Part shown: positions 4,610 through 18,878 of the stretch, one piece after another
How positions within the stretch are numbered: position 1 is the stretch's first letter
How the letters are laid out: each line of letters begins with the position of its first letter
Assembly: GCF_009856605.1 (NCBI RefSeq)
Contig: NZ_CP047242.1
Location: forward strand, 5,028,001 to 5,092,000
DNA from: Trichormus variabilis 0441
GTDB taxonomy: Bacteria; Cyanobacteriota; Cyanobacteriia; Cyanobacteriales; Nostocaceae
Direction: 5' to 3'
DNA length: 64,000 bases
Notes under the pieces: generated by a model
Told to the model about the DNA's origin: nothing
Seen by the model: the letters and a program-made list of their open reading frames with translations, nothing else
The model's database searches: none
Position numbers and translations under genes: made by a program

Positions 4610-5305
4610 ATGAATCATCAGAGATATTCTGCCAAATCACAGCGATTTCAAGAACTTCTGGCAATCACTGTTTTCGGGAATATCCCCACACTACTGCTAG
4701 GCCCAAAATTAAGGAATCTCGTATATCGAATGATTTTTGCTCACATAGGCAGTCCTGTATATATTCAACATGGAGTAGAATTTACCAACGCTTCTAATAT
4801 TGAAATTGGCAATAGTGTACATCTATTTAAAGGTGTACGTCTTGATGCTAAAGGGCATCCAAACAATAGAATTTATTTGGCAGATGGAGTGGCAATTGAG
4901 CGCAACGTTGATATAGGGTGTCTGGAAAATACGTGTATTCACATTGACGTGGAAACTTTCATTGCTTCTGATGTTTGTATTTCTGGGCCAGGAGACATCA
5001 CAATTGGTAAGCGTTGCATGATTGCTGCTCATTCAGGTATATATGCTAACAATCACAACTTTACAGATCCGATATTGCCGATTAAATACCAAGGTGTTAC
5101 TTGTAAAGGGATCGTGATTGAGGATGATTGTTGGCTAGGACATGGAGTAACGGTATTGGATGGTGTGACCATTGGTAAAGGAAGTGTCATTGGTGCAGGG
5201 GCAGTCGTCACCAAAGATATTCCCCCATTCTCCGTAGCTGTAGGCGCACCTGCACGAGTAATTAAAAGCCGTGTTGCCCAGGATTTAGTTACATCTGGAG
5301 ATTAG
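4610..5305 (+). CDS. Left-handed beta-helix (hexapeptide) acyltransferase, WcaF/Maa/CysE-like
   Basis: A 231-aa transferase of the hexapeptide-repeat family, which moves acetyl or acyl groups from CoA to sugars or other acceptors, often in exopolysaccharide or O-antigen synthesis. Residues 55-130 carry imperfect hexads (IEIGNSVHLFKGVRLDAKG, VAIERNVDIG). Residues 130-215 hold the usual end of the fold: IGKRCMIAAHSGIYANNHNF with the probable catalytic His, then VIEDDCWLGHGVTVLDGV, IGKGSVIGAGAVVTKDIPP and VAVGAPARVI. It stands alone after a long gap, with no glycosyltransferases beside it, so the acceptor cannot be inferred. The ATG at 4610 is the only good start. Confidence 0.85.
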   Translation: MNHQRYSAKSQRFQELLAITVFGNIPTLLLGPKLRNLVYRMIFAHIGSPVYIQHGVEFTNASNIEIGNSVHLFKGVRLDAKGHPNNRIYLADGVAIERNVDIGCLENTCIHIDVETFIASDVCISGPGDITIGKRCMIAAHSGIYANNHNFTDPILPIKYQGVTCKGIVIEDDCWLGHGVTVLDGVTIGKGSVIGAGAVVTKDIPPFSVAVGAPARVIKSRVAQDLVTSGD

Positions 5306-5585
5306 GGATGGGGATCAAGGGAAGAAGCAATTACCAATTTATCTTCAAAATAGGAAACCTCCGGCTGAAGAAAACGTCACAAGATGAACTAGTTAACAAC
5401 TAAATCCTATTCAGGGTCATCCACTCCGCCAGAAAAAACTGAGCATTAGCTAAGGAAACTGAACATGGTCTTAACGACCACTGCGGCACTCTCAAAAAGT
5501 AACGAGATGCGGGTAATATAAAGAAACTACCTTTTCTGCATGGCAGATACTGAGGACGAAGCTCTACCTTTTGGAGATATCGCAG

Positions 5586-5702
5586 ATGCTCACTTTAAAA
5601 ATCGCTGTTTATATTGTTGTTGCTTTCTTTGTGGCTATCTTTGTCTTCGGATTTTTGTCTAATGACCCAGCTCGTAACCCCGGTCGTCGGGATTTAGAGT
5701 AA
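5586..5702 (+). CDS. psbI: Photosystem II reaction center protein I (PsbI)
   Basis: A 38-aa single-span thylakoid membrane protein, the full usual PsbI length. It begins [15 protein letters not shown], continues with a hydrophobic helix to FGFLSN, and ends with the stromal tail [12 protein letters not shown]. PsbI binds beside D1 and CP43 and helps early assembly of the photosystem II core. The gene is monocistronic: about 280 bp of spacer precedes it, and a hairpin at 5756-5795 follows. A TAATAT hexamer near 5513-5518 could be its -10 box, without a clear -35. Confidence 0.95.
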
Positions 5703-5755
5703 AAGCGAGACAATTTATCCGTGAGCGCCGGAAGTTAGAAAACACCAGATTGAAA

Positions 5756-5795
5756 AACACTACCTGCCAAAGATTTTTCCTTTGCAGTGTAGTGT
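5756..5795 (+). terminator. Hairpin downstream of psbI
   Basis: An outer stem, acactac with gtagtgt, stacks on an inner stem, ctgccaaag with ctttgcag (one bulge), with a T-rich loop. It lies 54 bp after the psbI stop and 80 bp before the next gene. It lacks a long U-tract, but its position fits transcript-end processing or termination. Confidence 0.5.
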
Positions 5796-5877
5796 CTCCC
5801 TCAGGGAGTTTACTCAAGCACAGGTGAATTCATTCCGGCTATTAATTGGCTATTTGTTAGGTTGATTGTGTCCCAAT

Positions 5878-8535
5878 ATGCTTCATCCAGTTCTGCCGCC
5901 TGCACCTCCTTCCCTTGTTGAACCTATACAACCTGCAAATTCCACCCCATCTGCTAGTGATAGTCGATTTCATTTAGTGAGTGAGATTGATACCACTAAG
6001 CAAAACAAACTAGAGACCGCCAAACCCCCAGAGAAACAGTTTCAAAATCCAACTGTAGAGAAAACAGAAGATTCTTTGCAGTTACCAAGACCCACCAGCA
6101 ATAAAACAGAGCATTTAATTGCAACTCCTGTTCTGGCAAAACCCAGTACACCAGAAATCTTCACTTCAGAATTTTCCCCCCTTACCCCTTCTAGTAGCGC
6201 TGTTAATTTAGGACAAACCTTGACAATTGGTTATTCTGTCCAAAAAAATACAAGCACTAATTCCCCAGTCTTCCCTACAGCGACAATTCCTCAGTCTGTC
6301 CAAAAAAATACAAGCACTAATTCCCCAGTCTTCCCTACAGCGACAATTCCTCAATCTGTCCAAAAAAATACAAGCACTAATTCCCCAGTCTTCCCTACAG
6401 CGACAATTCCTCCAGATGTATCACCTCAAACAAAACTAGTCGCCTCGGCATTGACTAAGCAAGAACAGAAAGACGAGGTTACTGTACAACAGACTGGGGA
6501 CAAAATTAATATCTCTGTATCTGATAGTGACCCGGTAGTTAATAATCAACCAATTCAAAATGTTATTGAGTTTAAGTCGCGTAACTCGTTAAATAAACTA
6601 TCAATACAAACTGTCACGCCAGCTCTTAGTTCACAAGCACAGTCACCAATACCAACTCGAACACCTGCTACACCCAACAATACACTACCAGCCCGACAAA
6701 GAATTGTAGAAGTGACTTCAGATCGGCAGGAGTATGATGAGCAAAGACGCGTGATTACTGCCGAAGGTAATGTATTAGTACGGTTTGATGGGGCGCTACT
6801 GGATGCCGATCGCGTGCAGGTAAATTTAGATAACTTGATTGCGGCGGGAGAGGGAGATGTAGTTTTAACTAGAGGAGATCAGTTATTACGAGGACAACGC
6901 TTTACTTATAATTTTGTCCAAGACAGTGGGGAATTAGAAAACGGAAGCGGTGAAATCAACGTACCCTCAGCATCAAGAGATTTTGCCTTCTTACCCACTG
7001 ATGTGACAGCTGGTGGCGTACCACAACAACCACCAAGCAACTCTATCCGCACCAATCAACCTCTTTCTAATGTCAGCAGTCCCGGTGGCATTGAATTTAC
7101 ATTTGGGGGAGGGAGCGAAGCGAGTAATCTGCCTCCTCCCAAAGCTGGGGGTGAGGTGAAGCGTATTAGGTTTGAAGCCGAGCAAATTGAGTTTTATCCC
7201 CGTGGTTGGCAAGCGCGAAATGTGCGCCTGACAAATGACCCATTTTCACCACCAGAATTGGAGTTACGGGCAGATACAGTCACCGTCACACGGGAGGCTC
7301 CTTTAATTGATCGGATCACCACACAGCGACAGCGTTTAGTCTTTGACCAAGGCTTGACCTTACCAATCCCCATAAATCAGCAGAAAATCGACCGTCGAGA
7401 ACGGGATAGCACACCCTTTATCGTCTCTCCTGGCTATGATGGCGATAAGCGGGGTGGTGTTTTTATTGAGCGCGGTTTTACACCTATTAGTACGGATAGT
7501 ACTAATTTGCAGATCACTCCCCAGTTTTTCGTCCAGAAAGCCATACAAGGTAATGATGATGTGACGGGGTTATTTGGTGTCAAAGCCAGATTAAATTCTG
7601 TTTTAGGTACCCGATCTGTACTTGAAGGTATCGGAGAACTAACTAGTTTTAATTTTGACGACATAGACGAGAATTTAAAGGCGAGTTTACGTTTACGCCA
7701 AGCCTTAGGCGATCGCAATCCTCATGTGGTGAATTGGGAATACAGTTACCGCGATCGCCTCTATAACGGTACACTTGGCTTTCAAACCGTCCAAAGTAGT
7801 TTGGGTGGTGTCATTACTTCTCCAGTTATTCCTCTGGGGAACTCTGGGATCAACCTCAGCTATCAAGCCGGCGCGCAGTATATCAACGCCAACACTGACC
7901 GCCAAGACTTGCTAGATCCCATCAGAACCAATGATCGAGTCTCTCTTGGTCGCCTACAAGGTAGCGCCGCCTTGAGTAAAGGGTTTTTACTATGGCAAGG
8001 AAAACCACTACCACCCACAGCCACGGAAGGTTTAAGATATACAGCTACTCCTGTAGTTCCTTACTTACAGGCGATCGCCGGTATTACTGGTACTTCTAGC
8101 TACTACACCAATGGCGACAACCAAAGCAGCCTGACTGGCACAGTTGGCTTAGTAGGGCAGCTTGGTCATTTTTCTCGCCCCTTCCTTGACTACACAGCTT
8201 TTAACGTCCGTTATTCCCAAGGTTTAACCAGTGGACTATCACCCTTTTTGTTTGACCGCTACGTTGATGAAAGAGTACTCAGTGCCGGCATCTCCCAACA
8301 AATTTACGGCCCTTGGCGTTTAGGTTTTCAAACATCAATTAACTTAGATACTGGTAAAGAAAGTAGCACAGACTACATTGTTGAATATAGCCGACGCACT
8401 TACGGAATCACCTTGCGCTACAATCCGGTACTGGAATTAGGCGCTTTTAGCATCCGCATTAGTGACTTTAACTGGACTGGCGGTGCAGATCCATTTTCGG
8501 AGGTTAGACCAGTTGTCGGTGGTGTGAGTCAGTAG
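5878..8535 (+). CDS. OstA/LptA-like and DUF3769 outer-membrane protein
   Basis: An 885-aa protein. Residues 1-270 are low-complexity, rich in Pro, Thr, Ser and Gln, and contain a 20-residue unit repeated three times. Residues about 275-360 resemble the OstA/LptA periplasmic fold (RIVEVTSDRQEYDEQRRVITAEGNV, cut here to its core VITAEGNVLVRFDGALLDAD). The C-terminal half matches the cyanobacterial DUF3769 beta-rich region, LptD-like, ending in a beta-strand pattern. It probably takes part in lipopolysaccharide export or outer-membrane assembly. The ATG at 5878 gives the N-terminus MLHPVLPPAPP; an in-frame TTG lies 12 bp upstream. No classical signal peptide is visible at either start, which is odd for an exported protein. 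Confidence 0.8.
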   Translation: MLHPVLPPAPPSLVEPIQPANSTPSASDSRFHLVSEIDTTKQNKLETAKPPEKQFQNPTVEKTEDSLQLPRPTSNKTEHLIATPVLAKPSTPEIFTSEFSPLTPSSSAVNLGQTLTIGYSVQKNTSTNSPVFPTATIPQSVQKNTSTNSPVFPTATIPQSVQKNTSTNSPVFPTATIPPDVSPQTKLVASALTKQEQKDEVTVQQTGDKINISVSDSDPVVNNQPIQNVIEFKSRNSLNKLSIQTVTPALSSQAQSPIPTRTPATPNNTLPARQRIVEVTSDRQEYDEQRRVITAEGNVLVRFDGALLDADRVQVNLDNLIAAGEGDVVLTRGDQLLRGQRFTYNFVQDSGELENGSGEINVPSASRDFAFLPTDVTAGGVPQQPPSNSIRTNQPLSNVSSPGGIEFTFGGGSEASNLPPPKAGGEVKRIRFEAEQIEFYPRGWQARNVRLTNDPFSPPELELRADTVTVTREAPLIDRITTQRQRLVFDQGLTLPIPINQQKIDRRERDSTPFIVSPGYDGDKRGGVFIERGFTPISTDSTNLQITPQFFVQKAIQGNDDVTGLFGVKARLNSVLGTRSVLEGIGELTSFNFDDIDENLKASLRLRQALGDRNPHVVNWEYSYRDRLYNGTLGFQTVQSSLGGVITSPVIPLGNSGINLSYQAGAQYINANTDRQDLLDPIRTNDRVSLGRLQGSAALSKGFLLWQGKPLPPTATEGLRYTATPVVPYLQAIAGITGTSSYYTNGDNQSSLTGTVGLVGQLGHFSRPFLDYTAFNVRYSQGLTSGLSPFLFDRYVDERVLSAGISQQIYGPWRLGFQTSINLDTGKESSTDYIVEYSRRTYGITLRYNPVLELGAFSIRISDFNWTGGADPFSEVRPVVGGVSQ
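6235..6412 (+). repeat. Three-copy 60-bp in-frame tandem repeat
   Basis: Three consecutive 60-bp units beginning tctgtccaaaaaaatacaag encode a 20-residue unit (SVQKNTSTNSPVFPTATIPQ). Units 1 and 2 differ by at most one base, and unit 3 diverges only in its last few bases. Being a multiple of three, the array can expand or shrink without breaking the frame. Confidence 0.97.
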
Positions 8536-8565
8536 TGGAGACTACCTTTTTTGATAAACAACTGA

Positions 8566-10068
8566 CTATTGACAATTTAAAGGTAAAGTAATTGTAAACG
8601 TAGTCCCAACACCTTCTTGGGAGTTAAAAGCAATTTCTCCTTTGTGAGCTTCAACGCATCTTTTAACTATCACTAAACCTAGCCCAGTCCCTTGAATTGA
8701 TTGAGAATTAGAAGCTCGATAAAATGATTCAAATAGATGGGTTTGATCTGCAACAGGAATACCAATACCTTCGTCTTGAATCCGGAAAATTGCTACACCT
8801 TTAGTTTGATCAAAAGTTAAGTCAAACCTGATAGTTTCATTTTGGGGAGAATACTTGACAGCATTAGAAAGTAAGTTCACAAATATGTAATGTAATAGTC
8901 GTTCATCCATAAACGCATTTGTAGTTTCGTCACTACAGGTAAAAATAATTTCATGTCCACTAATTTCTACAGTTGTGAATTCTTCTATTAACTCTTGACA
9001 AAATCCCTTTAAATTTAAGAGTACAGGGTTACAATCAAGCTTTGCCGCGTCAGATTTACCCATAAACAGGACATCTTCCATGAGTAACTTCATGGATTGC
9101 ACAGCGCCTTTAATTCTCTTTATATATGTATTTTTTTTGGTTTCGGTTAAATTTTGCCCGTGTAATTCTATCAGTTCTATTGCTGTTTGAATTACACTCA
9201 AAGGATTGCGAAATTCGTGAGAGACAGTAGAGATAAATAAGGATTTAAGATTGTTCAGTTCTCGTTCTTTTTGCAGCGCTTGCTCTAGTAATTCTGTTTG
9301 TCTTCGTTCACTGAGATCCCAAAAAACAATTACCACACCGTTGATTTTGTTTGGTAGTCCCATGATGGGTGAAGCACTATCACCGATAGGTACCCTTCTG
9401 CCATCTTTGGTAATCAAAGATGTATATTCATCTAAATAAACTACTTTTTGTTCTCTGAGAACTTTTGTAACTGGATTTTCTAAAACATTTTCTGTAACTT
9501 CGTCAATGATATTAAAAATCTGGGATACTTCATGTCCAATAGCATCTGCTTGATGCCAACCAGTAATTTCCTCGGCGGCTGGGTTCATAAATGTGACGTT
9601 TCCAAACTCATCAGTGGCGATAACAGCATCACTAATTGAGTTTAGGAGGGTTGCTAACCGATCACGATTTTCTCTTATGTCCCTTTCCAAGCGATGTTTC
9701 AGCAAACCCATTTCAATGGAAATACGCAAGTCTTTAGAGGTGAATGGTTTGACAATATACCCAAATGGTTGAGTGATCTTTGCCCGCTCTATAGTATTAT
9801 CGTCACCATAAGCAGTTAAAAATATAACCGGAATATCTAAATGTTCCCGAATGTAACTGGCAGTGGTGATACCATCGATTTCACCTTTGAGGATAATATC
9901 CATGAAAACTAGTTCTGGGCTAGTCTCTATTGCTTTAGCGATCGCCGCTTTTCCAGAAGAGGCTGTACCGATAACAATATAACCTAGTTGATTCAGTTGA
10001 CTAGCAATAGTTCTAGCTACGATCACTTCATCTTCAACGACTAAAATTTTGACTGGCTCCATTGTCAA
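8566..10068 (-). CDS. Response regulator-PAS-histidine kinase (REC-PAS-HisKA-HATPase)
   Basis: A 500-aa cytoplasmic signalling protein. The REC domain (7-120) has Asp57 in LVFMDIILKG and a KPF motif. A PAS domain follows (about 135-250, DAVIATDEFGNVTFMNPAA). HisKA carries His284 in STVSHEFRNPLS, and the HATPase has DEGIGIP and GTGLGLVIVKRCVEAHKG. There is no transmembrane span. Its start lies 15 bp after the stop of the larger sensor kinase upstream, so the two are almost certainly co-transcribed. The N-terminal receiver could be phosphorylated by that partner, with this kinase passing the signal on; no output regulator is encoded in the operon. This phosphorelay direction is inference. Confidence 0.93.
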   Translation of the reverse strand: MTMEPVKILVVEDEVIVARTIASQLNQLGYIVIGTASSGKAAIAKAIETSPELVFMDIILKGEIDGITTASYIREHLDIPVIFLTAYGDDNTIERAKITQPFGYIVKPFTSKDLRISIEMGLLKHRLERDIRENRDRLATLLNSISDAVIATDEFGNVTFMNPAAEEITGWHQADAIGHEVSQIFNIIDEVTENVLENPVTKVLREQKVVYLDEYTSLITKDGRRVPIGDSASPIMGLPNKINGVVIVFWDLSERRQTELLEQALQKERELNNLKSLFISTVSHEFRNPLSVIQTAIELIELHGQNLTETKKNTYIKRIKGAVQSMKLLMEDVLFMGKSDAAKLDCNPVLLNLKGFCQELIEEFTTVEISGHEIIFTCSDETTNAFMDERLLHYIFVNLLSNAVKYSPQNETIRFDLTFDQTKGVAIFRIQDEGIGIPVADQTHLFESFYRASNSQSIQGTGLGLVIVKRCVEAHKGEIAFNSQEGVGTTFTITLPLNCQ

Positions 10069-10083
10069 TTTACAGTTGTTCAG

Positions 10084-12909
10084 TTAATGCGAAAATTGGA
10101 TTTTAAATGTAGTTCCTGGTTGACGTTCGATACTAACAGTGCCTTCTAGTTGTTCTGTTACTAAGTCATGAACTAGCGAAAGGCCTAAAGAATCTGTATA
10201 CCGCCAATCTAAATTATCTGGTAAACCGATACCATTATCTTGAATAGTCATCTCAATTTTGTCATCGACTTTTTGTAAATCAATTTTTATTGCACCTGTT
10301 GTATTTTGAGGAAAAGCGTGTTTCAGTGAATTGGAAATTAGTTCATTGATAATTAAACCGCAGGCAATGGCTTGATCAAGATTTAAATCAACCGGGTGAA
10401 TATGAGTTTCTAAACTGATTCTCCCTGGCTCTAATTGATAGGATATTAAAATACTCGTAGCTAAATTATTAACATAATCAACAACATCAAGTTGCCCAAT
10501 ATTTGGTGAAGTATATAAGTTCTTGTGAATCATTGAGATGGACTCAATACGGTTTTGACTTTCTTGCAGAGTTCTGATTAATTCTGGGTCTTTGAGTGTT
10601 TGAGAATGAAGTAGTAATAATCCAGAAACTATCTGTAAATTATTTTTAACCCGATGATGAACCTCTTTGAGTAAAACCTCTTTTTCCGCTAAGGCACTTC
10701 TCAAGCGAACTTCTACTTTTTGGCGTTCAGCCAATTCATTTTGGGCTTGCTGAAGTATGCTTGATTGCTGGATGGCGATCGCAATGGGGACGGAAAGTTG
10801 GTCGAGCAAATCTAGTTCATGCGCTTCCCAGTCCCGTGGGGTAGAACATTGATGGGCTATTAATAAACCCCAAAGCTGCGGCACAGTGTTGCCTTCACTC
10901 ACTTCTAACAGAATAGGTACAACTAAGTTAGCTTTAACTTGAAATTGTTCTAATAAATGCAGATGACAATCAGTTAATCCAGCTGTGTAGATGTTGGCGA
11001 TCGCTCTTTTATGTCCTTGACAATAATCTGCTCCTGCGCCTGACTGGAAACAATTATCTTGAATATCTGCACCTAGAGCAATTTTCCATCCAGGCTTCAC
11101 CGATTCTGCTACGATTTTACCACTCATATCTGGGGCAAACTGATAAACCACGACCCGATCAACCCCAAGCAAGTCTTTAATTTCTTTAACTGTGGCATTC
11201 AGAATATTTTGTAGATTCAGCGATTGGCGAATTCGTTGAGCAACAGCACGCATTAACTGTTCTCGCTCAATCTGTCCTTTCAAAGCCCGTTCGGTTTGTT
11301 TACGCTCGGTAATTTCTTGACCAATACCAATTATTCGACCGTCGGCAAGTTTGATATTTATCCAAGAAGTATCTAATACTTGCCCATATCGTGTCTGAGT
11401 TCTAAAATCACCCCAAATACATTCTCCTGATTGCATAAACTTGATGACCGATTGACGATATTCAGGCTGAGGATATAACTCTGCAAAAATATCAAGGGTT
11501 TGATAATCTCTCAAACTCCAACCTAAAAGACGCTCTAATTCTTGATTTATCCATTGAACCTGACCTTCAGGACTAATCAGTGCAATCATCAACGGGATAC
11601 CAGCAAAAATACTTTGTAAAAGTGCATTTTGCTCTTGTAACTTGGCTTCAATATTTTTGCGCTCTGTAATATCGTAGAGGACGGTTAAAATTGCATACTC
11701 GTTGTTGAAATTTAAGTACTGAATTGAGGCGATCGCCCAAAATGAAGTTCCGTCACTTTTCTTAAATTGAATATCATAATTCTGAAGTGATCCATGTTGA
11801 CTAAGAGCTTCTAATATCTGCTGTCGGTCTTCGGAGTTTTCATATAAATCTGCGGCATAGTGATTAATTAAATCATTTCCAGATAGTTGGAATGTTTGCA
11901 GAAACTCTGAATTAGTATATAAAATTAAGCCATCATCAACGCGGGAAATCACCAAAGGTACGGGAATTGCTTCCAGAATAGTTCTAACTCTGGCTTCACT
12001 TTTTTGTAGATTCCGTTCTATTTGAATATGTTCAGTAATATTTATGGTATCAACTAAACAAGCTTGATAACCTGAATATTCTATATAATTAATAGCTAAT
12101 TCAACATCAATAACTTGTCCACCCCTTAGACGATGTTGACATTCCATTAGGAAGGGAAGTTGAGAATATTCCTGTTCTATATCCCTGATTAAGTCCGATA
12201 TAAACTCAGGTACAAAAACTTGGGCAAACTGCATTTGTAAAAACTCTGTTTTTGAGTAACCATATTGTGTAATAGCAGCTTGATTAACATCTAAAATTTG
12301 TAGACTTTGCATCTCACATATCCACATAGGACGAGGATTATTAGTGAACAAGAGATGAGCATTGAAGCTGCTTTCATGATTAATTCGCTTTTTGTGTAAC
12401 TCTAATTGTCTGATGATTTGACGCGCTAAACGTTGGAGTATTTGCTGTTCTTTTAAACTTAAGTTACGGGGGGTAAAATCTATCACGGCCAGACAACCCA
12501 AGGCAAAACCCTCAGAGTTAATTAAGGGAACTCCTCCATAGAAACGGAAAGCGCTTGGCTTTTGCCTCACTAGGGGATTTTCTACAAATCGTTCATCTTG
12601 CCAGGTGTCAGGAATAATCAATATGTCATTTTGCCCAATTGTATGAATACCAAGACATATATCACGTGGTATTTCTAATTCAGAAATTCCTACTTTTGAC
12701 TTAAACCATTCTCTTTGAGAATCTAAAATACTGATCAGAGCAATTGGTGTATTACAGCTATCGGCAGCAATATTTACCAGATCGTCAAATACTTCTTCTG
12801 GTGGTGTATCTAAAATGCAATATTGATAGAGCGCTTCTAAGCGTAGGCTTTCACTGTCGGTAAACAACATTATTGCTTTATTTGATGAATAATTGATGAT
12901 AAGCTGCAT
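10084..12909 (-). CDS. Multi-GAF/PAS histidine kinase with DXCF-type cyanobacteriochrome GAF domain
   Basis: A 941-aa soluble sensor kinase. Domains in order: GAF (about 30-165); three PAS domains (about 185-300, 305-420, 425-540), two of them ending in DITERK/EITERK-like linkers; a second GAF (about 555-725); HisKA_2 with His751/His752 in EVHHRVKNNLQ; and HATPase with DNGIGLP near 895. The second GAF has Cys648 followed by His (TDCHLHLL), the bilin-attachment site of phytochrome-like GAFs, and Cys620 in DNCF, the second-cysteine motif of DXCF cyanobacteriochromes. The 28-residue spacing equals Cys494 to Cys522 in TePixJ. It is therefore probably a bilin-binding blue/green-type photosensor kinase. 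It is the first gene of an operon with the REC-PAS kinase. Confidence 0.9.
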   Translation of the reverse strand: MQLIINYSSNKAIMLFTDSESLRLEALYQYCILDTPPEEVFDDLVNIAADSCNTPIALISILDSQREWFKSKVGISELEIPRDICLGIHTIGQNDILIIPDTWQDERFVENPLVRQKPSAFRFYGGVPLINSEGFALGCLAVIDFTPRNLSLKEQQILQRLARQIIRQLELHKKRINHESSFNAHLLFTNNPRPMWICEMQSLQILDVNQAAITQYGYSKTEFLQMQFAQVFVPEFISDLIRDIEQEYSQLPFLMECQHRLRGGQVIDVELAINYIEYSGYQACLVDTINITEHIQIERNLQKSEARVRTILEAIPVPLVISRVDDGLILYTNSEFLQTFQLSGNDLINHYAADLYENSEDRQQILEALSQHGSLQNYDIQFKKSDGTSFWAIASIQYLNFNNEYAILTVLYDITERKNIEAKLQEQNALLQSIFAGIPLMIALISPEGQVQWINQELERLLGWSLRDYQTLDIFAELYPQPEYRQSVIKFMQSGECIWGDFRTQTRYGQVLDTSWINIKLADGRIIGIGQEITERKQTERALKGQIEREQLMRAVAQRIRQSLNLQNILNATVKEIKDLLGVDRVVVYQFAPDMSGKIVAESVKPGWKIALGADIQDNCFQSGAGADYCQGHKRAIANIYTAGLTDCHLHLLEQFQVKANLVVPILLEVSEGNTVPQLWGLLIAHQCSTPRDWEAHELDLLDQLSVPIAIAIQQSSILQQAQNELAERQKVEVRLRSALAEKEVLLKEVHHRVKNNLQIVSGLLLLHSQTLKDPELIRTLQESQNRIESISMIHKNLYTSPNIGQLDVVDYVNNLATSILISYQLEPGRISLETHIHPVDLNLDQAIACGLIINELISNSLKHAFPQNTTGAIKIDLQKVDDKIEMTIQDNGIGLPDNLDWRYTDSLGLSLVHDLVTEQLEGTVSIERQPGTTFKIQFSH

Positions 12910-13558
12910 TTTCCAGTAGAAATCGCAGTTTTAAACTCATCTGTAAAGTCTAGCTAAGCTATTCTGCCTTTAAGTTGCACAATCCATCGTCAGTGCTGTT
13001 GATTGTTGACTGTTAACTGTCAACAGCCCTTATTAGTAGTTATGCAATTTAGACGCTTAGTAGCTGAATATTCATTAATTTTAATCTAGCTAGGTCAGCA
13101 TATATTGCCAACAACGTATGAGTAAAGTTGCCAAAAGTGCTTACCTAGTTGAGAAAGCTGACGGTGTTAAGTTCCCACTCCCCAGTCTCACCGCCATTTC
13201 ACCAAGCGTCTCTTAAGATAAGGAAATCGTTCCTCATAGCTGTTTCATTCGTCTTTATGTACGTAGTTCATAGTGATACTTAAAAAACAGTAGCCTACGG
13301 CAAAGCGTAGGCTAGATAGGAAATAACTCTATGACTCTCAATTTACAATCGATAGCGATCGCTTTGATCAAATTCTTTATGGGGCTGACAAGCAGGTAAA
13401 ATTCTGCGGCGTTTACCCTAAAGTATGTTAAATGCTGCCTAGCGTTACTGTACGCAGTCGGCAATAATAGTATAACCTTTGTCTACAAGACTCCCTACAA
13501 AAACATCAGGGTGCCAAAGAGAACATAAAGATACTCTCCAACCGACCGCAGGTCATCG
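12910..13558. other. 650-bp spacer with small inverted repeats
   Basis: It separates the sensor operon, whose promoter should lie at its left end on the minus strand, from a leftward response regulator gene that ends at 13559. It contains a TGTTGA/TCAACA-type inverted repeat near 13000-13027 and the palindromic repeat at 13291-13314. The 13440-13558 end lies just downstream of the regulator gene. No coding region was recognised. Confidence 0.5.
13291..13314. repeat. Short palindromic spacer repeat
   Basis: A 9-bp stem, tagcctacg with cgtaggcta, has a 6-nt loop. A related agccgtaggct core occurs near 56650, so it appears to be a dispersed palindromic repeat. Confidence 0.6.
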
Positions 13559-14197
13559 CTACTTAATTTTTTGTTTAATAAAAGTGACTACTTGGGCGAG
13601 CTGTTTCTTCAAACCTTCAATTTCTGCCTGCATCTTAGCAACTTTGTCATTAAGTGCTTGAATTTCAGCAGCCGCATCTGCATCTATTCCAGCCGTTGCT
13701 ACTGTAGTAGTGGTAGCAACTGTAGGTGGAGCTACTGTTGCTACAGCGCCATGTGTCATAGTAGCAGTGGCTGTATTACCATTCTTAGCAGCAACTGCTC
13801 CTACTGGTTCTTGGCGCGGTAATTTAGCCTTAGTCATTGCTGACTTAATCGCATTAATGAGCTGTTTCTGATCAAAAGGTTTACCCAAAAATTCAAAATA
13901 CTCGAAAGGTTCAGTGATTTTTTCCGTCACCTCTTCCTTCCTCCCAGACATAATTACCAAGGGAATTTTTCTCAGTTCAGGATGCGCTTGAACTTGCTGG
14001 AATACTTCCCAACCACTTAATTTAGGCAGCAGGAAATCCAACATGATCAAGCTGAGTTTTTCTTGTCGGATGAGATTTATCCCTTCCAAGCCGTCCTTGG
14101 CTTCTAATACCTCAAAATTGCCAGGGGGCAACATTTCACGTACTTTTACCCTGACAACGGTAGTGTCATCGATAACTAAAATTTTGTTACTTGCCAC
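13559..14197 (-). CDS. CheY-like response regulator with Ala/Thr/Val linker and C-terminal coiled coil
   Basis: A 212-aa protein. The receiver domain (4-122) has the acidic pair Asp10-Asp11, the phosphoacceptor Asp54 in IMLDFLLPKLSG and the lysine of LGKPF. Residues about 130-172 are a low-complexity Ala/Thr/Val linker. Residues 175-205 form a predicted coiled coil (AEIQALNDKVAKMQAEIEGL). There is no DNA-binding or enzymatic output, so it probably works by binding partners or oligomerising. It is divergent from lipA and 570 bp away from the sensor operon on the same strand. A link to that operon is possible but unproven. The ATG start is well defined. Confidence 0.9.
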   Translation of the reverse strand: MASNKILVIDDTTVVRVKVREMLPPGNFEVLEAKDGLEGINLIRQEKLSLIMLDFLLPKLSGWEVFQQVQAHPELRKIPLVIMSGRKEEVTEKITEPFEYFEFLGKPFDQKQLINAIKSAMTKAKLPRQEPVGAVAAKNGNTATATMTHGAVATVAPPTVATTTTVATAGIDADAAAEIQALNDKVAKMQAEIEGLKKQLAQVVTFIKQKIK

Positions 14198-14521
14198 GAC
14201 TGATTACTCTAAAAGAATATTGAAGTTTAAATAGCGGCTTCCCTGGGGGATGCTGTGTGAATTCCGAATGACCGTGAGAATCTCCCCACTATATCCAACA
14301 TTGTTATTAATTGGGGGATAGTATATTTCGGTATAAATGTCGTCGTCGGCAGTGTTTAACAAAACTTTGAGGATATGGAGTAATAGGAGAAAATAGGAGA
14401 GAGTTTATTGATTTGAAGTTATATCTCCCTACACCCCTAAACCCCTACACCCCCACACCCAGTCTCAACCGACAATTTTAGTGCGTAAGTCCAATAGAGA
14501 TTTATTTTTATTTATCAGCCT
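14198..14521. other. Divergent spacer between response regulator and lipA
   Basis: It holds both divergent promoters. A short run of CCCCTA/CCCACAC units lies at 14427-14460, and a copy of the element-end motif tgcgtaagtcc at 14482-14492. No gene and no clear ribosome binding site for lipA were seen. A long 5' leader or an element insertion is possible. Confidence 0.45.
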
Positions 14522-15439
14522 ATGACTGCCTCACAACCTGCTCAGTTTAAGTCGGAAATCACGGCAATGCCCAGTTGGTTGCGCCGTCCCATTGGCAAAG
14601 CTAGTGAACTGTCAACAGTACAGCGCATTATTAAACAGCGTCAAATTCATACAATTTGTGAAGAAGGTCGCTGCCCGAATCGGGGTGAGTGCTATGCCCA
14701 AAAAACGGCTACATTCTTACTTATGGGGCCTACCTGCACCCGTGCTTGTGCTTTTTGTCAAGTCGATAAGGGTCATGCACCAATGCCAATTGACCCAGAG
14801 GAAGCAGCAAAGGTGGCAGAAGCGGTACAACTTTTGGGACTGCGTTATGTAGTACTTACTTCTGTCGCTCGTGATGATTTACAAGATCAGGGAGCAAGCC
14901 ACTTTGTCCAAACTATGGAGGCAATTCGTCAACTAAATCCGGGTACTCAAATTGAAGTGTTGACACCGGATTTTTGGGGTGGTGCAGGCGCAGGGGAAGC
15001 CGGACAACGCCAGCGCCTAAAAATGATTGTAGAGGCGCAACCAGCTTGTTTTAACCATAACATTGAGACAGTGCGTCGCTTAACCGGGCCAGTCCGCCGG
15101 GGTGCTAAATACGATCGCTCTTTGCGGGTTCTCTCTCTTGTCAAAGAACTAAACCCCCATATTCCCACCAAATCAGGCTTAATGGTGGGACATGGAGAGA
15201 CGGTTACTGAACTAGTCGAAGCAATGACAGACTTAAGGGCTATAGGATGCGATCGCCTCACTATCGGTCAGTATATGCGCCCATCCCTAGAACATTTACC
15301 AGTCCAAAAATATTGGACACCAGAAGAATTTGAGCATCTGGGCAAACTAGCCAGAGAAATAGGCTTTAGCCACGTCCGTTCGGGTCCACTAGTTCGCAGT
15401 TCCTATCATGCTGGGGAGGAACCAATACCGTTCGGATAA
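14522..15439 (+). CDS. lipA: Lipoyl synthase
   Basis: A 305-aa radical-SAM enzyme that inserts two sulfurs into octanoyl groups on E2 and H proteins of pyruvate dehydrogenase and glycine cleavage. The auxiliary cluster cysteines are Cys46, Cys51 and Cys57 ([12 protein letters not shown]). The radical-SAM cysteines are Cys72, Cys76 and Cys79 (CTRACAFC). The C-terminal RSSYHAGE supplies the serine ligand. Length and motifs are complete, so it should be active. It stands alone; lipB is not in the window. Cyanobacteria often carry two lipA paralogues, and which one this is cannot be decided here. Confidence 0.96.
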
Positions 15440-15544
15440 GCAGGGGAGGCAGAGGAAGCAGAGGAGGCAGGGGAGGAAAGAAGTTTATTTTCATAATTTT
15501 TCTCTTCCCCTACTTCTGTTCTCCCCTTACTTCCCCTGCCTGCC
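15440..15544. repeat. Purine-rich/pyrimidine-rich inverted repeat after lipA
   Basis: Tandem gcaggggaggcagagga-type units are followed, about 30 bp later, by their near complement (cttcccctgcctgcc). Together they can fold into a long imperfect hairpin directly after the lipA stop codon. This is a typical Nostoc short-repeat spacer and a possible transcription end. Confidence 0.6.
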
Positions 15545-15718
15545 TTAACCAAGAAATCCCTTAACCGAAACGTATTGGGGTAGGAACAGGAATAATTCCA
15601 GATTCTCTACTCAACACCCCCTAATTTGCGATTCACACAAATATTTTTAAAGAATGTGGGCAATTGTGTCCTCTGTTTGGTATTTCTGAAAAAGTCATGA
15701 CATAAGGAGAACCGATTT

Positions 15719-15853
15719 ATGGCTAAAGCCAAAACTCCCGCAGTTGCCAATACCGGCGCTAAACCCCCCTATACTTTTCGTACAGCTTGGGCGCTGTTGC
15801 TACTAGGTGTTAACTTTCTGGTAGCAGCTTATTATTTCCACATTATTCAATAG
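15719..15853 (+). CDS. psaX: Photosystem I 4.8-kDa subunit (PsaX)
   Basis: A 44-aa thylakoid protein. A basic, Ala/Pro-rich N-terminus (MAKAKTPAVANTGAKPPY) is followed by TFRTAWALLLLGVNFLVAAY, one membrane helix, and a short HIIQ end. This matches PsaX, a peripheral one-helix photosystem I subunit present only in some cyanobacteria. AAGGAGA at 15703-15709 is a good ribosome binding site for the ATG. The gene is monocistronic, lying between lipA and the oppositely oriented natD. Confidence 0.93.
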   Translation: MAKAKTPAVANTGAKPPYTFRTAWALLLLGVNFLVAAYYFHIIQ

Positions 15854-16009
15854 TTCAATTGGGGAAGTAGGGAATAGGGACTAGGAAGGGAGAAAAATTT
15901 TACCCAATCCCCCTTTGTGTTTGCAGTAGCCTGGGTCGGGAAACCCTCCCGCAGCGCTGTCTCACCAGTTCCTAATTCCCAGTCCCCAAACTAAGTGGAA
16001 TGGTGTTGC

Positions 16010-16876
16010 TCACATCGTGCCTTTAAATAAACCTTTAGGACGAATGAGCAACACCAAAATCATGATTAGTAGGGCAACACCTTGTTTGTATTGGGAACCT
16101 AACAAGGGTGTACTCACTTCTTGAACAATACCAATGATAAAAGCTGCGGCGATCGCACCGTAAGGGTTGCCAATACCGCCCAAGATTACGGAAGCGAATA
16201 GCGGCAAAATTAAAAACCAACCCATATTAGGACGTACTGCCGTAATTAAGCCATACATACTGCCACCTAAAGAGGTAACTGTGCCGGCAATTAGCCAAGT
16301 CCAAAAAATTACTTGCTCCACATCAATCCCAGAAACCTTGGCTAAATCCAAATCGTCAGCAACAGCACGCATCGCCTTACCAATTTTTGTGTTTTGTAAG
16401 AGGTAGTGCAGTGCGCCGATGGATAATACTGCTAATGCCAACACCAGCAATTGATTTTGTGGTACTTTCACACCAAAAATATCTAAAGCAGGAGTGATGG
16501 GTAAATTATAATTTTGGTTTCTGCCGCCCCAAATTAAAATAATCCCGTTACGCAGGAATAATGCCAGCCCAATTGAGATAATAATAAGAGTAGTGGAATT
16601 AGCTCGGATCGAGCGCATTCTAGACCATAGCAATTTTTCTGACAGTAACATTGCTCCCACCGTTCCCACTACTGCCACTATCATCGATAACCAAATATTT
16701 ACCCCAAAAGTGTTGACCAACAAAGTCAAATAAGCCCCTAAAGTTAAGAAATCACCGTGGGCAAAATTAGACAACCGTAAAATTCCATAAGTTAAAGTCA
16801 GTCCCACAGCCGCAAGAGCGATAATGCTACCTACCGCAATACCATTGACAATCAGTTGAATCGTTTGTATGTCCAT
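16010..16876 (-). CDS. natD: Branched-chain/neutral amino acid ABC transporter permease (LivH-type)
   Basis: A 288-aa inner-membrane permease with about eight hydrophobic helices and the LivH signature near the N-terminus (AAVGLTLTYGILRLSNFAHG). It should pair with a LivM-type permease, two ATPases and a periplasmic binding protein, none of which is encoded nearby. In Anabaena PCC 7120 the N-I neutral amino-acid transporter (NatABCDE) is scattered around the chromosome, and NatD is the lone LivH-like subunit. The isolated position next to lipA and psaX agrees with that. The symbol therefore rests on family plus recalled context. The start is ATG at 16876. Confidence 0.85.
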   Translation of the reverse strand: MDIQTIQLIVNGIAVGSIIALAAVGLTLTYGILRLSNFAHGDFLTLGAYLTLLVNTFGVNIWLSMIVAVVGTVGAMLLSEKLLWSRMRSIRANSTTLIIISIGLALFLRNGIILIWGGRNQNYNLPITPALDIFGVKVPQNQLLVLALAVLSIGALHYLLQNTKIGKAMRAVADDLDLAKVSGIDVEQVIFWTWLIAGTVTSLGGSMYGLITAVRPNMGWFLILPLFASVILGGIGNPYGAIAAAFIIGIVQEVSTPLLGSQYKQGVALLIMILVLLIRPKGLFKGTM

Positions 16877-17066
16877 ATTGCTAATTAAATAAGCTAATCT
16901 ATAGTTATTTAGAAAGTGGTGATTGACAACAAAAATTCCCAGTTTATCACCAAAAATCAGTACTATAAGTTATGATTTATCGACAAAAAAGAATTGTGAG
17001 CTAATATACATAGAATCGTGTTTGCATTTTTTGCAAAACTAAAGTTGTTAAACGGTCTAGTTGACC

Positions 17067-18878
17067 ATGCAGCAGTATTCAAGCTTACCAGAACACAACT
17101 CATCGATAGACACAACGCCGACTCTGTTGGCAAAAAGTCAGCAGCTTTGCGCTGAGTTATGGCTGGAACGCAGCTTGAACCAGCTACAAACACGCCTGCT
17201 TAATTGCTTAGAGTCTGCTTTCAACAGTGTTCCCACAAGAACCACAGAAGCGGATATTTTCCAAACAGTGGTTAATGAACTAGACATTGCTTTAAACAAT
17301 AGCAATGTGGGTTTTCCTTTGTGTGCTGTGGGGATTGCTCTGTTGCAACCGCAAGCAGCAGTTGGTAAAGTTTACTATATTTCTCGCCCTCTATCTCTAG
17401 GCTGTCAACCTCCACTCTTAGAAGAAATATCCAAAGACGGGAAAAAACTGCGGTTGCAATTGCAAGAAGCGATCAAAATTACAGATTTACAAAAACTAGA
17501 AAAGCAACAACCTCCACAAGCTTGGCAATTAAGGGATGATGCTGATGGTGTGATCGGGTGGTTACTTCTGGCGACAGATAACTCAAAGCCTCATGAAAAC
17601 GCATTCACAGCACCACATCCTCAACTTAATACGCAACTCATGGAGCGATCGGCCGAACAATGTGTGAAAGCCTTAGCACATCTCAAAAAAATACAATCTT
17701 TGCAGCAGAAATCTCAAAATTTAGGTATTTCTAATCAGGAATTGGAGCGGACTAATCAACTGAAAAATCAGTTTTTAGCCAATACAAGTCATGAAATTCG
17801 CACACCCCTAAGTTCGATTATTGGTTTTACTCACCTGCTTCTAGCGCAAGGTTACGATCCAACGAGAGAGCGCCATCATGAATATTTAAATATTATTCAA
17901 TCTAGTGGTAAACATCTATTGGCTCTGATTAACGATATTTTGGATCTCTCCAAGATTGAGGCTAATCAGTTAGAAGTACAGTGGGAAAAGGTGAATGTAC
18001 CAGAACTTTGTCAAAATGTATTAACGCTGATCAAGGAGAAGGCCGCAAATAAAGGGGTGAAATTGTCTTTGGAATTAGATCCCCATATCAAGACTTTTGT
18101 TGCTGACCCTTTGCGGCTCAAACAGATGCTTTTGAACTTGTTATTTAATGCTCTCAAATTTACTAATCAAGGCACTGTTGGCTTAAAGGTGACACAGCGA
18201 GAGTCATTTATCCACTTTACAGTCTGGGACACTGGTAGCGGTATTTCTCCAGAAAATCTGGCGCTACTGTTTCAACCATATTTCCAAATTCCTAATTCTT
18301 CAGTTGCCCAACATGAAGGTACTGGTTTAGGTTTAGTGGTGACTCGTAAACTGGCAGAAATTCACAATGGTTCTGTAGAAGTAGAATCCCAAGTTGATCA
18401 CGGTTCCCGCTTCACTATTATCTTGCCTCTACAACAGAATGGGCAAGTATTAGTAGGAGAAGATATGGAGGATGAGGAAACGACATCTCCTGCATCTTTG
18501 ACACCTAACAGTTCAAAAGACATTTTGTTAGTTGAGGATGATTTACCCAACGGTGAATTGATGCAAACTCACTTGTCTAAGTTGGGATATAACGTTACTT
18601 GGGTCAAGAATGCCCATGAAATGTGGGCAAAACTAGACCAACAACAAGCAGCAGTTATCTTAATGGATATCCGGTTACCAGATGGTGATGGTTTAGATTT
18701 AGTCAAGCAGTTGCGAGAAAAATCTCAATATCAACAGATTCCTATTATTGCCCAAACAGCGATGGCGATGAAAGGCGATCGCTCTATCTGTCTATCTGCT
18801 GGAGTCAACGACTATATTTCTAAACCCATAGATTTAAATCTTTTGGCCAGTCTGGTGGCTAAGTATAGTCAGCTTTAG
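17067..18878 (+). CDS. Hybrid histidine kinase with N-terminal GAF-like region and C-terminal receiver
   Basis: A soluble hybrid sensor of 603 aa. Residues about 30-205 form a GAF-like sensory region (FPLCAVGIALLQPQ, GWLLLATDN). A short coiled coil precedes HisKA, with His242 in ANTSHEIRTPLSSIIGF. The HATPase has WDTGSGISP and GTGLGLVVTRKLAEIH. The receiver at 485-600 has Asp534 in VILMDIRLPDGDG and a KP motif (ISKPIDLNLL). The ATG at 17067 is preferred over an in-frame TTG two codons upstream. It is divergent from natD with about 190 bp between, and no neighbour suggests the stimulus. Confidence 0.92.
   Translation: MQQYSSLPEHNSSIDTTPTLLAKSQQLCAELWLERSLNQLQTRLLNCLESAFNSVPTRTTEADIFQTVVNELDIALNNSNVGFPLCAVGIALLQPQAAVGKVYYISRPLSLGCQPPLLEEISKDGKKLRLQLQEAIKITDLQKLEKQQPPQAWQLRDDADGVIGWLLLATDNSKPHENAFTAPHPQLNTQLMERSAEQCVKALAHLKKIQSLQQKSQNLGISNQELERTNQLKNQFLANTSHEIRTPLSSIIGFTHLLLAQGYDPTRERHHEYLNIIQSSGKHLLALINDILDLSKIEANQLEVQWEKVNVPELCQNVLTLIKEKAANKGVKLSLELDPHIKTFVADPLRLKQMLLNLLFNALKFTNQGTVGLKVTQRESFIHFTVWDTGSGISPENLALLFQPYFQIPNSSVAQHEGTGLGLVVTRKLAEIHNGSVEVESQVDHGSRFTIILPLQQNGQVLVGEDMEDEETTSPASLTPNSSKDILLVEDDLPNGELMQTHLSKLGYNVTWVKNAHEMWAKLDQQQAAVILMDIRLPDGDGLDLVKQLREKSQYQQIPIIAQTAMAMKGDRSICLSAGVNDYISKPIDLNLLASLVAKYSQL

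Follow-up and report, generated by a model that had tools for sequence, protein, structure and literature searches.

Positions 5,028,001 to 5,092,000 of contig NZ_CP047242.1 of Trichormus variabilis 0441 (64,000 nucleotides, hereafter the window) carry two adjacent minus-strand genes, a sensor kinase at 10084-12909 and a second kinase at 8566-10068, and we conclude that these very probably constitute a DXCF-type cyanobacteriochrome sensor kinase and its cognate REC-first partner. Sensors of this type are well known; of greater use is the conserved pairing. DXCF photosensors have been well described as isolated GAF domains, but to our knowledge few have been linked to a signalling route. In the orthologues examined here, motif and downstream REC-first kinase are co-inherited, which provides a specific candidate acceptor for the signal.

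GAF2 as a DXCF-type cyanobacteriochrome domain

The photosensory assignment concerns the second GAF domain of the sensor kinase (GAF2) and two motifs within it:

10771..11217, minus strand: GAF2, the DXCF cyanobacteriochrome domain, residues 565-713 (Pfam GAF, E 8.9e-31)
11047..11058, minus strand: DNCF motif, residues 618-621, with the second cysteine C620 (aligned to TePixJ D492/C494)
10963..10968, minus strand: C648-H649, the canonical bilin-attachment position (aligned to TePixJ C522/H523)

The sequence and fold hallmarks of the DXCF class were present, namely the canonical cysteine for C3(1) of the bilin, placed before a histidine (C648-H649), a second cysteine in an Asp-x-Cys-Phe motif (D618-N619-C620-F621) and a cyanobacteriochrome GAF fold in a protein in which Pfam detects no PHY domain. 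The first-pass annotation had read the Cys648-His pair, Cys620 in DNCF and a TePixJ-like spacing of 28 residues from the letters of the window, and the sequence bore this out; in an alignment, C620 and C648 fell without a gap on C494 and C522 of TePixJ (PDB 3vv4, 4glq), a blue/green DXCF cyanobacteriochrome with the same fold whose cysteines are likewise 28 residues apart. D492/D618, H523/H649 and N535/N661 are also common to the two domains, and the predicted GAF2 fold agreed with cyanobacteriochrome structures. The pattern D.CF-x26-CH did not arise in any of 20000 composition shuffles of the sensor kinase protein (0/20000). TePixJ is a methyl-accepting chemotaxis protein according to PDB, whereas the window protein is a kinase.

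Conservation of the motif was assessed in the best 120 of 609 matches (window protein included, a few partial), retrieved with words from residues 1-420, a query that favours proteins sharing the N-terminal part. Both cysteines were found at the exact spacing in 117 of these homologues, with D618 and F621 invariant (120/120 each), C620 present in 118 (Tyr in the other 2), C648 in 119 (1 gap) and H649 in 118. A third cysteine, Cys630 (11020-11022), lies ten residues past C620 and occurs in the window protein only (1/120); the other homologues mostly have Tyr (99), His (9) or Arg (6) at this position.

A tree of 74 GAF domains, whose deep forks are weak, placed GAF2 with its orthologues and with a paralogue from its own genome (L035), in a set of 11 rows that were all DXCF (99/98). 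The TePixJ clade and the GAF domains of a second type of gene pair, described below, lay elsewhere. These comparisons support the assignment of GAF2 as a DXCF-type cyanobacteriochrome GAF domain with both cysteines at the TePixJ positions.

The sensor kinase and its partner

The remaining domains of the sensor kinase and those of its partner are as follows:

10084..12909, minus strand: sensor kinase open reading frame (ORF), 941 amino acids (aa) (ORF list; Pfam and NCBIfam)
12415..12804, minus strand: GAF1, residues 36-165 (Pfam GAF_2, E 1.2e-06)
12016..12345, minus strand: PAS 1, about residues 189-298, limits approximate (TIGR00229, three stretches; NF045595 match 189-283)
11638..12003, minus strand: PAS 2, residues 303-424 (best TIGR00229 stretch; PAS_9 318-416)
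11296..11601, minus strand: PAS 3, residues 437-538 (PAS_4, E 3.8e-11)
10438..10665, minus strand: HisKA_2, residues 749-824 (Pfam and genome profile search, E 4.7e-25)
10093..10359, minus strand: HATPase_c of the sensor kinase, residues 851-939 (Pfam)
8566..10068, minus strand: partner REC-PAS-HisKA-HATPase_c kinase, 500 aa from TTG 10068 (498 aa from ATG 10062) (ORF list; Pfam)
9715..10047, minus strand: partner REC, residues 8-118, with the Asp57 codon at 9898-9900 (Pfam, E 5.9e-22)
9319..9660, minus strand: partner PAS, residues 137-250 (Pfam), found in window-type pairs and not in the other type
8578..9246, minus strand: partner HisKA, residues 275-341, and HATPase_c, residues 388-497 (Pfam)

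Pfam and NCBIfam thus gave the order GAF1-PAS-PAS-PAS-GAF2-HisKA_2-HATPase_c, in agreement with the first-pass annotation, which had listed one more GAF, three PAS domains and a HisKA_2 kinase. Inspection of GAF1 by eye showed neither a DXCF nor a Cys-His motif. HisKA_2 (PF07568) scored 87.9 bits, above the curated cut-off of 22.3, and the HHRVKN box, N box and G box are all present; His752 within HHRVKN is the probable phospho-accepting residue, chosen from the family motif. Translation may in fact begin at Met14, since the alignments of several close relatives start only at residues 11-13.

The next gene had been described as a REC-PAS-kinase 15 base pairs (bp) away, and this held for the listed TTG start; the ATG at 10062 gives a gap of 21 bp and makes Asp57 (TTG numbering) Asp55. 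The two genes form a unit that recurs in all close orthologues, with the partner directly downstream in 17 of 17 (L001-L017, window included), and the pair was also kept in the best matches from other families and orders. We compared 53 loci, comprising L001-L023 and L070-L099, the latter representing, best matches first, 30 of the 73 matching genomes. A HisKA_2 kinase and a receiver ORF lay within 450 bp of each other in 52 of the 53, or in 45 of 46 distinct loci once 7 repeats of the same place were removed, and the exception (L080) ends early; the loosest pair, L099, is separated by some 250-350 bp. A single ORF encoded both receiver and kinase in 50 of 52 loci (L077 ends early, and no kinase was matched in L021), and the receiver Asp was kept in every aligned row (53/53, repeats and window included). 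DXCF or EXCF together with Cys-His/Tyr was found in 47 of 52 loci (41 of 45 distinct), the distinct loci lacking it being L019, L022, L023 and L096. In L022 the two parts of the GAF motif are in separate frames, which reflects either a genuine frameshift or an error of assembly.

Across 50 loci the distance from REC to kinase was bimodal, at 146-147 aa in 26, where a PAS domain intervenes as in the window, and at 13-20 aa in 24, where the partner has no PAS. In one genome (G226), a window-type pair (L079) occurs alongside a second match, whose 49% identity is at the level of the other module type. The two types provide a comparison set.

It is possible, and we suggest it tentatively, that these loci represent an old, so far unnamed cyanobacterial light cassette, in which a DXCF-HisKA_2 kinase is followed by a REC-first kinase. 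The cassette would exist in two forms, with or without a PAS domain in the partner and with GAF domains from different DXCF clades, and would pass a blue-type signal to a second kinase able to integrate further PAS input.

Candidate signalling route and alternatives

We infer the bilin pigment, its colour, the phosphotransfer and the final output from the DXCF and two-component families. By this analogy, GAF2 would bind phycocyanobilin via C648, with possible isomerisation to phycoviolobilin, and C620 would be reversibly linked to C10 of the pigment, giving a dark state that absorbs violet or blue. Light would break the C620 bond to yield a photoproduct at longer wavelength, and the change would alter autophosphorylation of His752 in HisKA_2. 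Phosphate could then pass from His752 to Asp57 of the partner receiver and set the activity of the partner HisKA kinase, whose target would be a response regulator elsewhere in the genome. If this relay is true, the partner kinase would be the point where light and a second PAS input converge.

Several observations weigh against a DXCF photosensor coupled to its neighbour. Promoter-like and terminator-like sites around the pair showed no excess over shuffled sequence, which leaves spacing and conservation as the basis for co-transcription. L019 (= L098), L023 and L096 share the two-gene layout and lack the DXCF motif, and the relay is therefore independent of this photosensor. Only the best of five structure models was confident (87.6; the others 69.8-74.5). 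GAF2 and TePixJ fall in separate tree clades, and their pockets are also not identical: where TePixJ has H498 and W499 as contacts to the propionates, GAF2 has G624 and A625, and Q526 is replaced by L652.

It is unlikely, and still the strongest of the alternatives, that the photosensor is real and the neighbouring REC-PAS-kinase is not its acceptor, the two genes sharing a promoter or an output while HisKA_2 signals to an orphan regulator. Adjacency is indirect evidence for phosphotransfer, and in a survey of HisKA_2 kinases, which gave 73 matches in 31 of 59 genomes of the class, no downstream receiver was found in 9 of the 32 matches inspected (30 best-per-genome loci and two loci of the own genome), counting L128, which stops at the end of its locus. 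However, a REC-first kinase lay directly downstream in 15 of the 32 (window included; 14 of 31 without it), and the pair is kept in all 17 close orthologues and in the best matches of other families and orders, which argues for the partner as the acceptor. A further 5 of the 32 had a REC-first ORF downstream with no kinase matched within the fetched stretch, 1 had a receiver 213 bp on, and 2 had receiver pieces about 700 bp on. The idea of a rare arrangement was rejected on this survey, and the first-pass annotation, which had called it uncommon, was not supported on this point: the pairing looks common in cyanobacteria, where the same gene order recurs with varying inputs. The genome itself has three HisKA_2 kinases by profile search; one of them, L068, is among the 15 and has no bilin-GAF match nearby; the layout is thus not specific to light sensing.

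Quite improbable is a GAF2 that is a DXCF relative without a bilin, or without the second linkage, in a kinase that senses otherwise through GAF1 or PAS. The differing pocket residues, the Tyr at C620 in 2 of 120 homologues and the related HisKA_2/REC-kinase modules without the motif would fit such a reading, but nearly all 120 homologues retain both cysteines, D618, F621 and H649, and the genome (7.1 Mb, 5 contigs) encodes the means of pigment supply, with one PF05996 bilin reductase and two heme oxygenases.

A photosensor of the XRG (red/green) or phytochrome type is scarcely credible and was rejected, since Ile616 (I616-Q617-D618-N619-C620-F621) replaces the Trp of the WXDXXL motif given for XRG in the introduction of PMC11284453, C620 is present, Pfam shows no PHY domain and GAF2 belongs to the all-DXCF set of the tree.

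Relatives, known systems and genome setting

The first-pass annotation had presented the protein as a likely new DXCF-type kinase; the DXCF type stands and the novelty is doubtful, with an orthologue in all 12 congeneric genomes searched. In 7 of these (G001, G004, G007-G010, G012) the open frame spans 821-836 codons, short of the full window domain set, and in the remaining 5 it spans 927-958 codons. Close named relatives are Nostoc parmelioides (92%), Anabaena subtropica (80%) and A. azotica (75%), and in L016, from the same family, the kinase is divided over two ORFs.

Ma et al. (2012, FEBS J 279:4095) reportedly, by the title of their paper, described seven GAF domains of Nostoc sp. PCC 7120 that bind bilin and absorb blue light, and All1280-GAF2 is said to be among the domains studied by that group. 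The window sensor kinase may be the orthologue of all1280, which would lower the novelty of the photosensor. The window order of permease, lipA, receiver gene, kinase, partner and DUF3769 gene, with their strands, presumably fits the gene numbers around all1280, assuming that the permease is NatD. In PMC7472364, natD is given as all1284 in one passage and as All1248 in another, and position 239 of NatD is Tyr in the discussion and Trp in an earlier mention of the same change. The permease of the window (16010-16876) carries Tyr239.

DpxA of Fremyella diplosiphon belongs to the DXCF class. It is a teal/yellow-responsive cyanobacteriochrome that was studied by kinase measurements, according to the commentary PMC4937213, and the available part of the AM1_1186g2 paper (PMC6628166) holds no usable rule for pigment isomerisation here. 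Our literature searches found no paper naming all1280 or the four neighbour genes searched; a search combining cyanobacteriochrome, HisKA_2 and histidine kinase returned only a title on another subject, and among the matches listed for the relay none was titled on this gene pair.

In its own genome, GAF2 had 34 matches; the DXCF pattern labelled 7 GAF domains (GAF2 included), as many as the title of Ma et al. gives for PCC 7120, and a stricter pattern 5. The paralogue L035 (also L067; G000:C1 1373-1378 kb) has an open frame of 1715 codons with a HisKA_2 domain and a DXCF GAF 60% identical to GAF2, and no REC-first kinase was found downstream of it.

Around the pair, the receiver gene at 13559-14197 was rejected as a member of the unit, being beside the pair in only 2 of 17 loci; flanks in this check were 1500 bases, shorter upstream where a match starts inside the protein, and L007 starts at a contig end. 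It was also absent from L032 and L033 with 5000-base flanks. No Rfam match was obtained at the gathering threshold in 5000-18000, and no repeats were found in 12900-13600. A 9-pair stem with a T tail (13291-13314, minus strand), between the receiver gene and the sensor kinase, is a possible terminator, though sites of this sort show no excess over shuffled sequence. Convergent with the partner gene lies a DUF3769 protein (5866-8535; Pfam E 1e-203) whose N-terminus gives an LptA/LptD-like match, and a HisKA-HATPase-REC hybrid kinase of 605 aa is encoded close by at 17061-18878.
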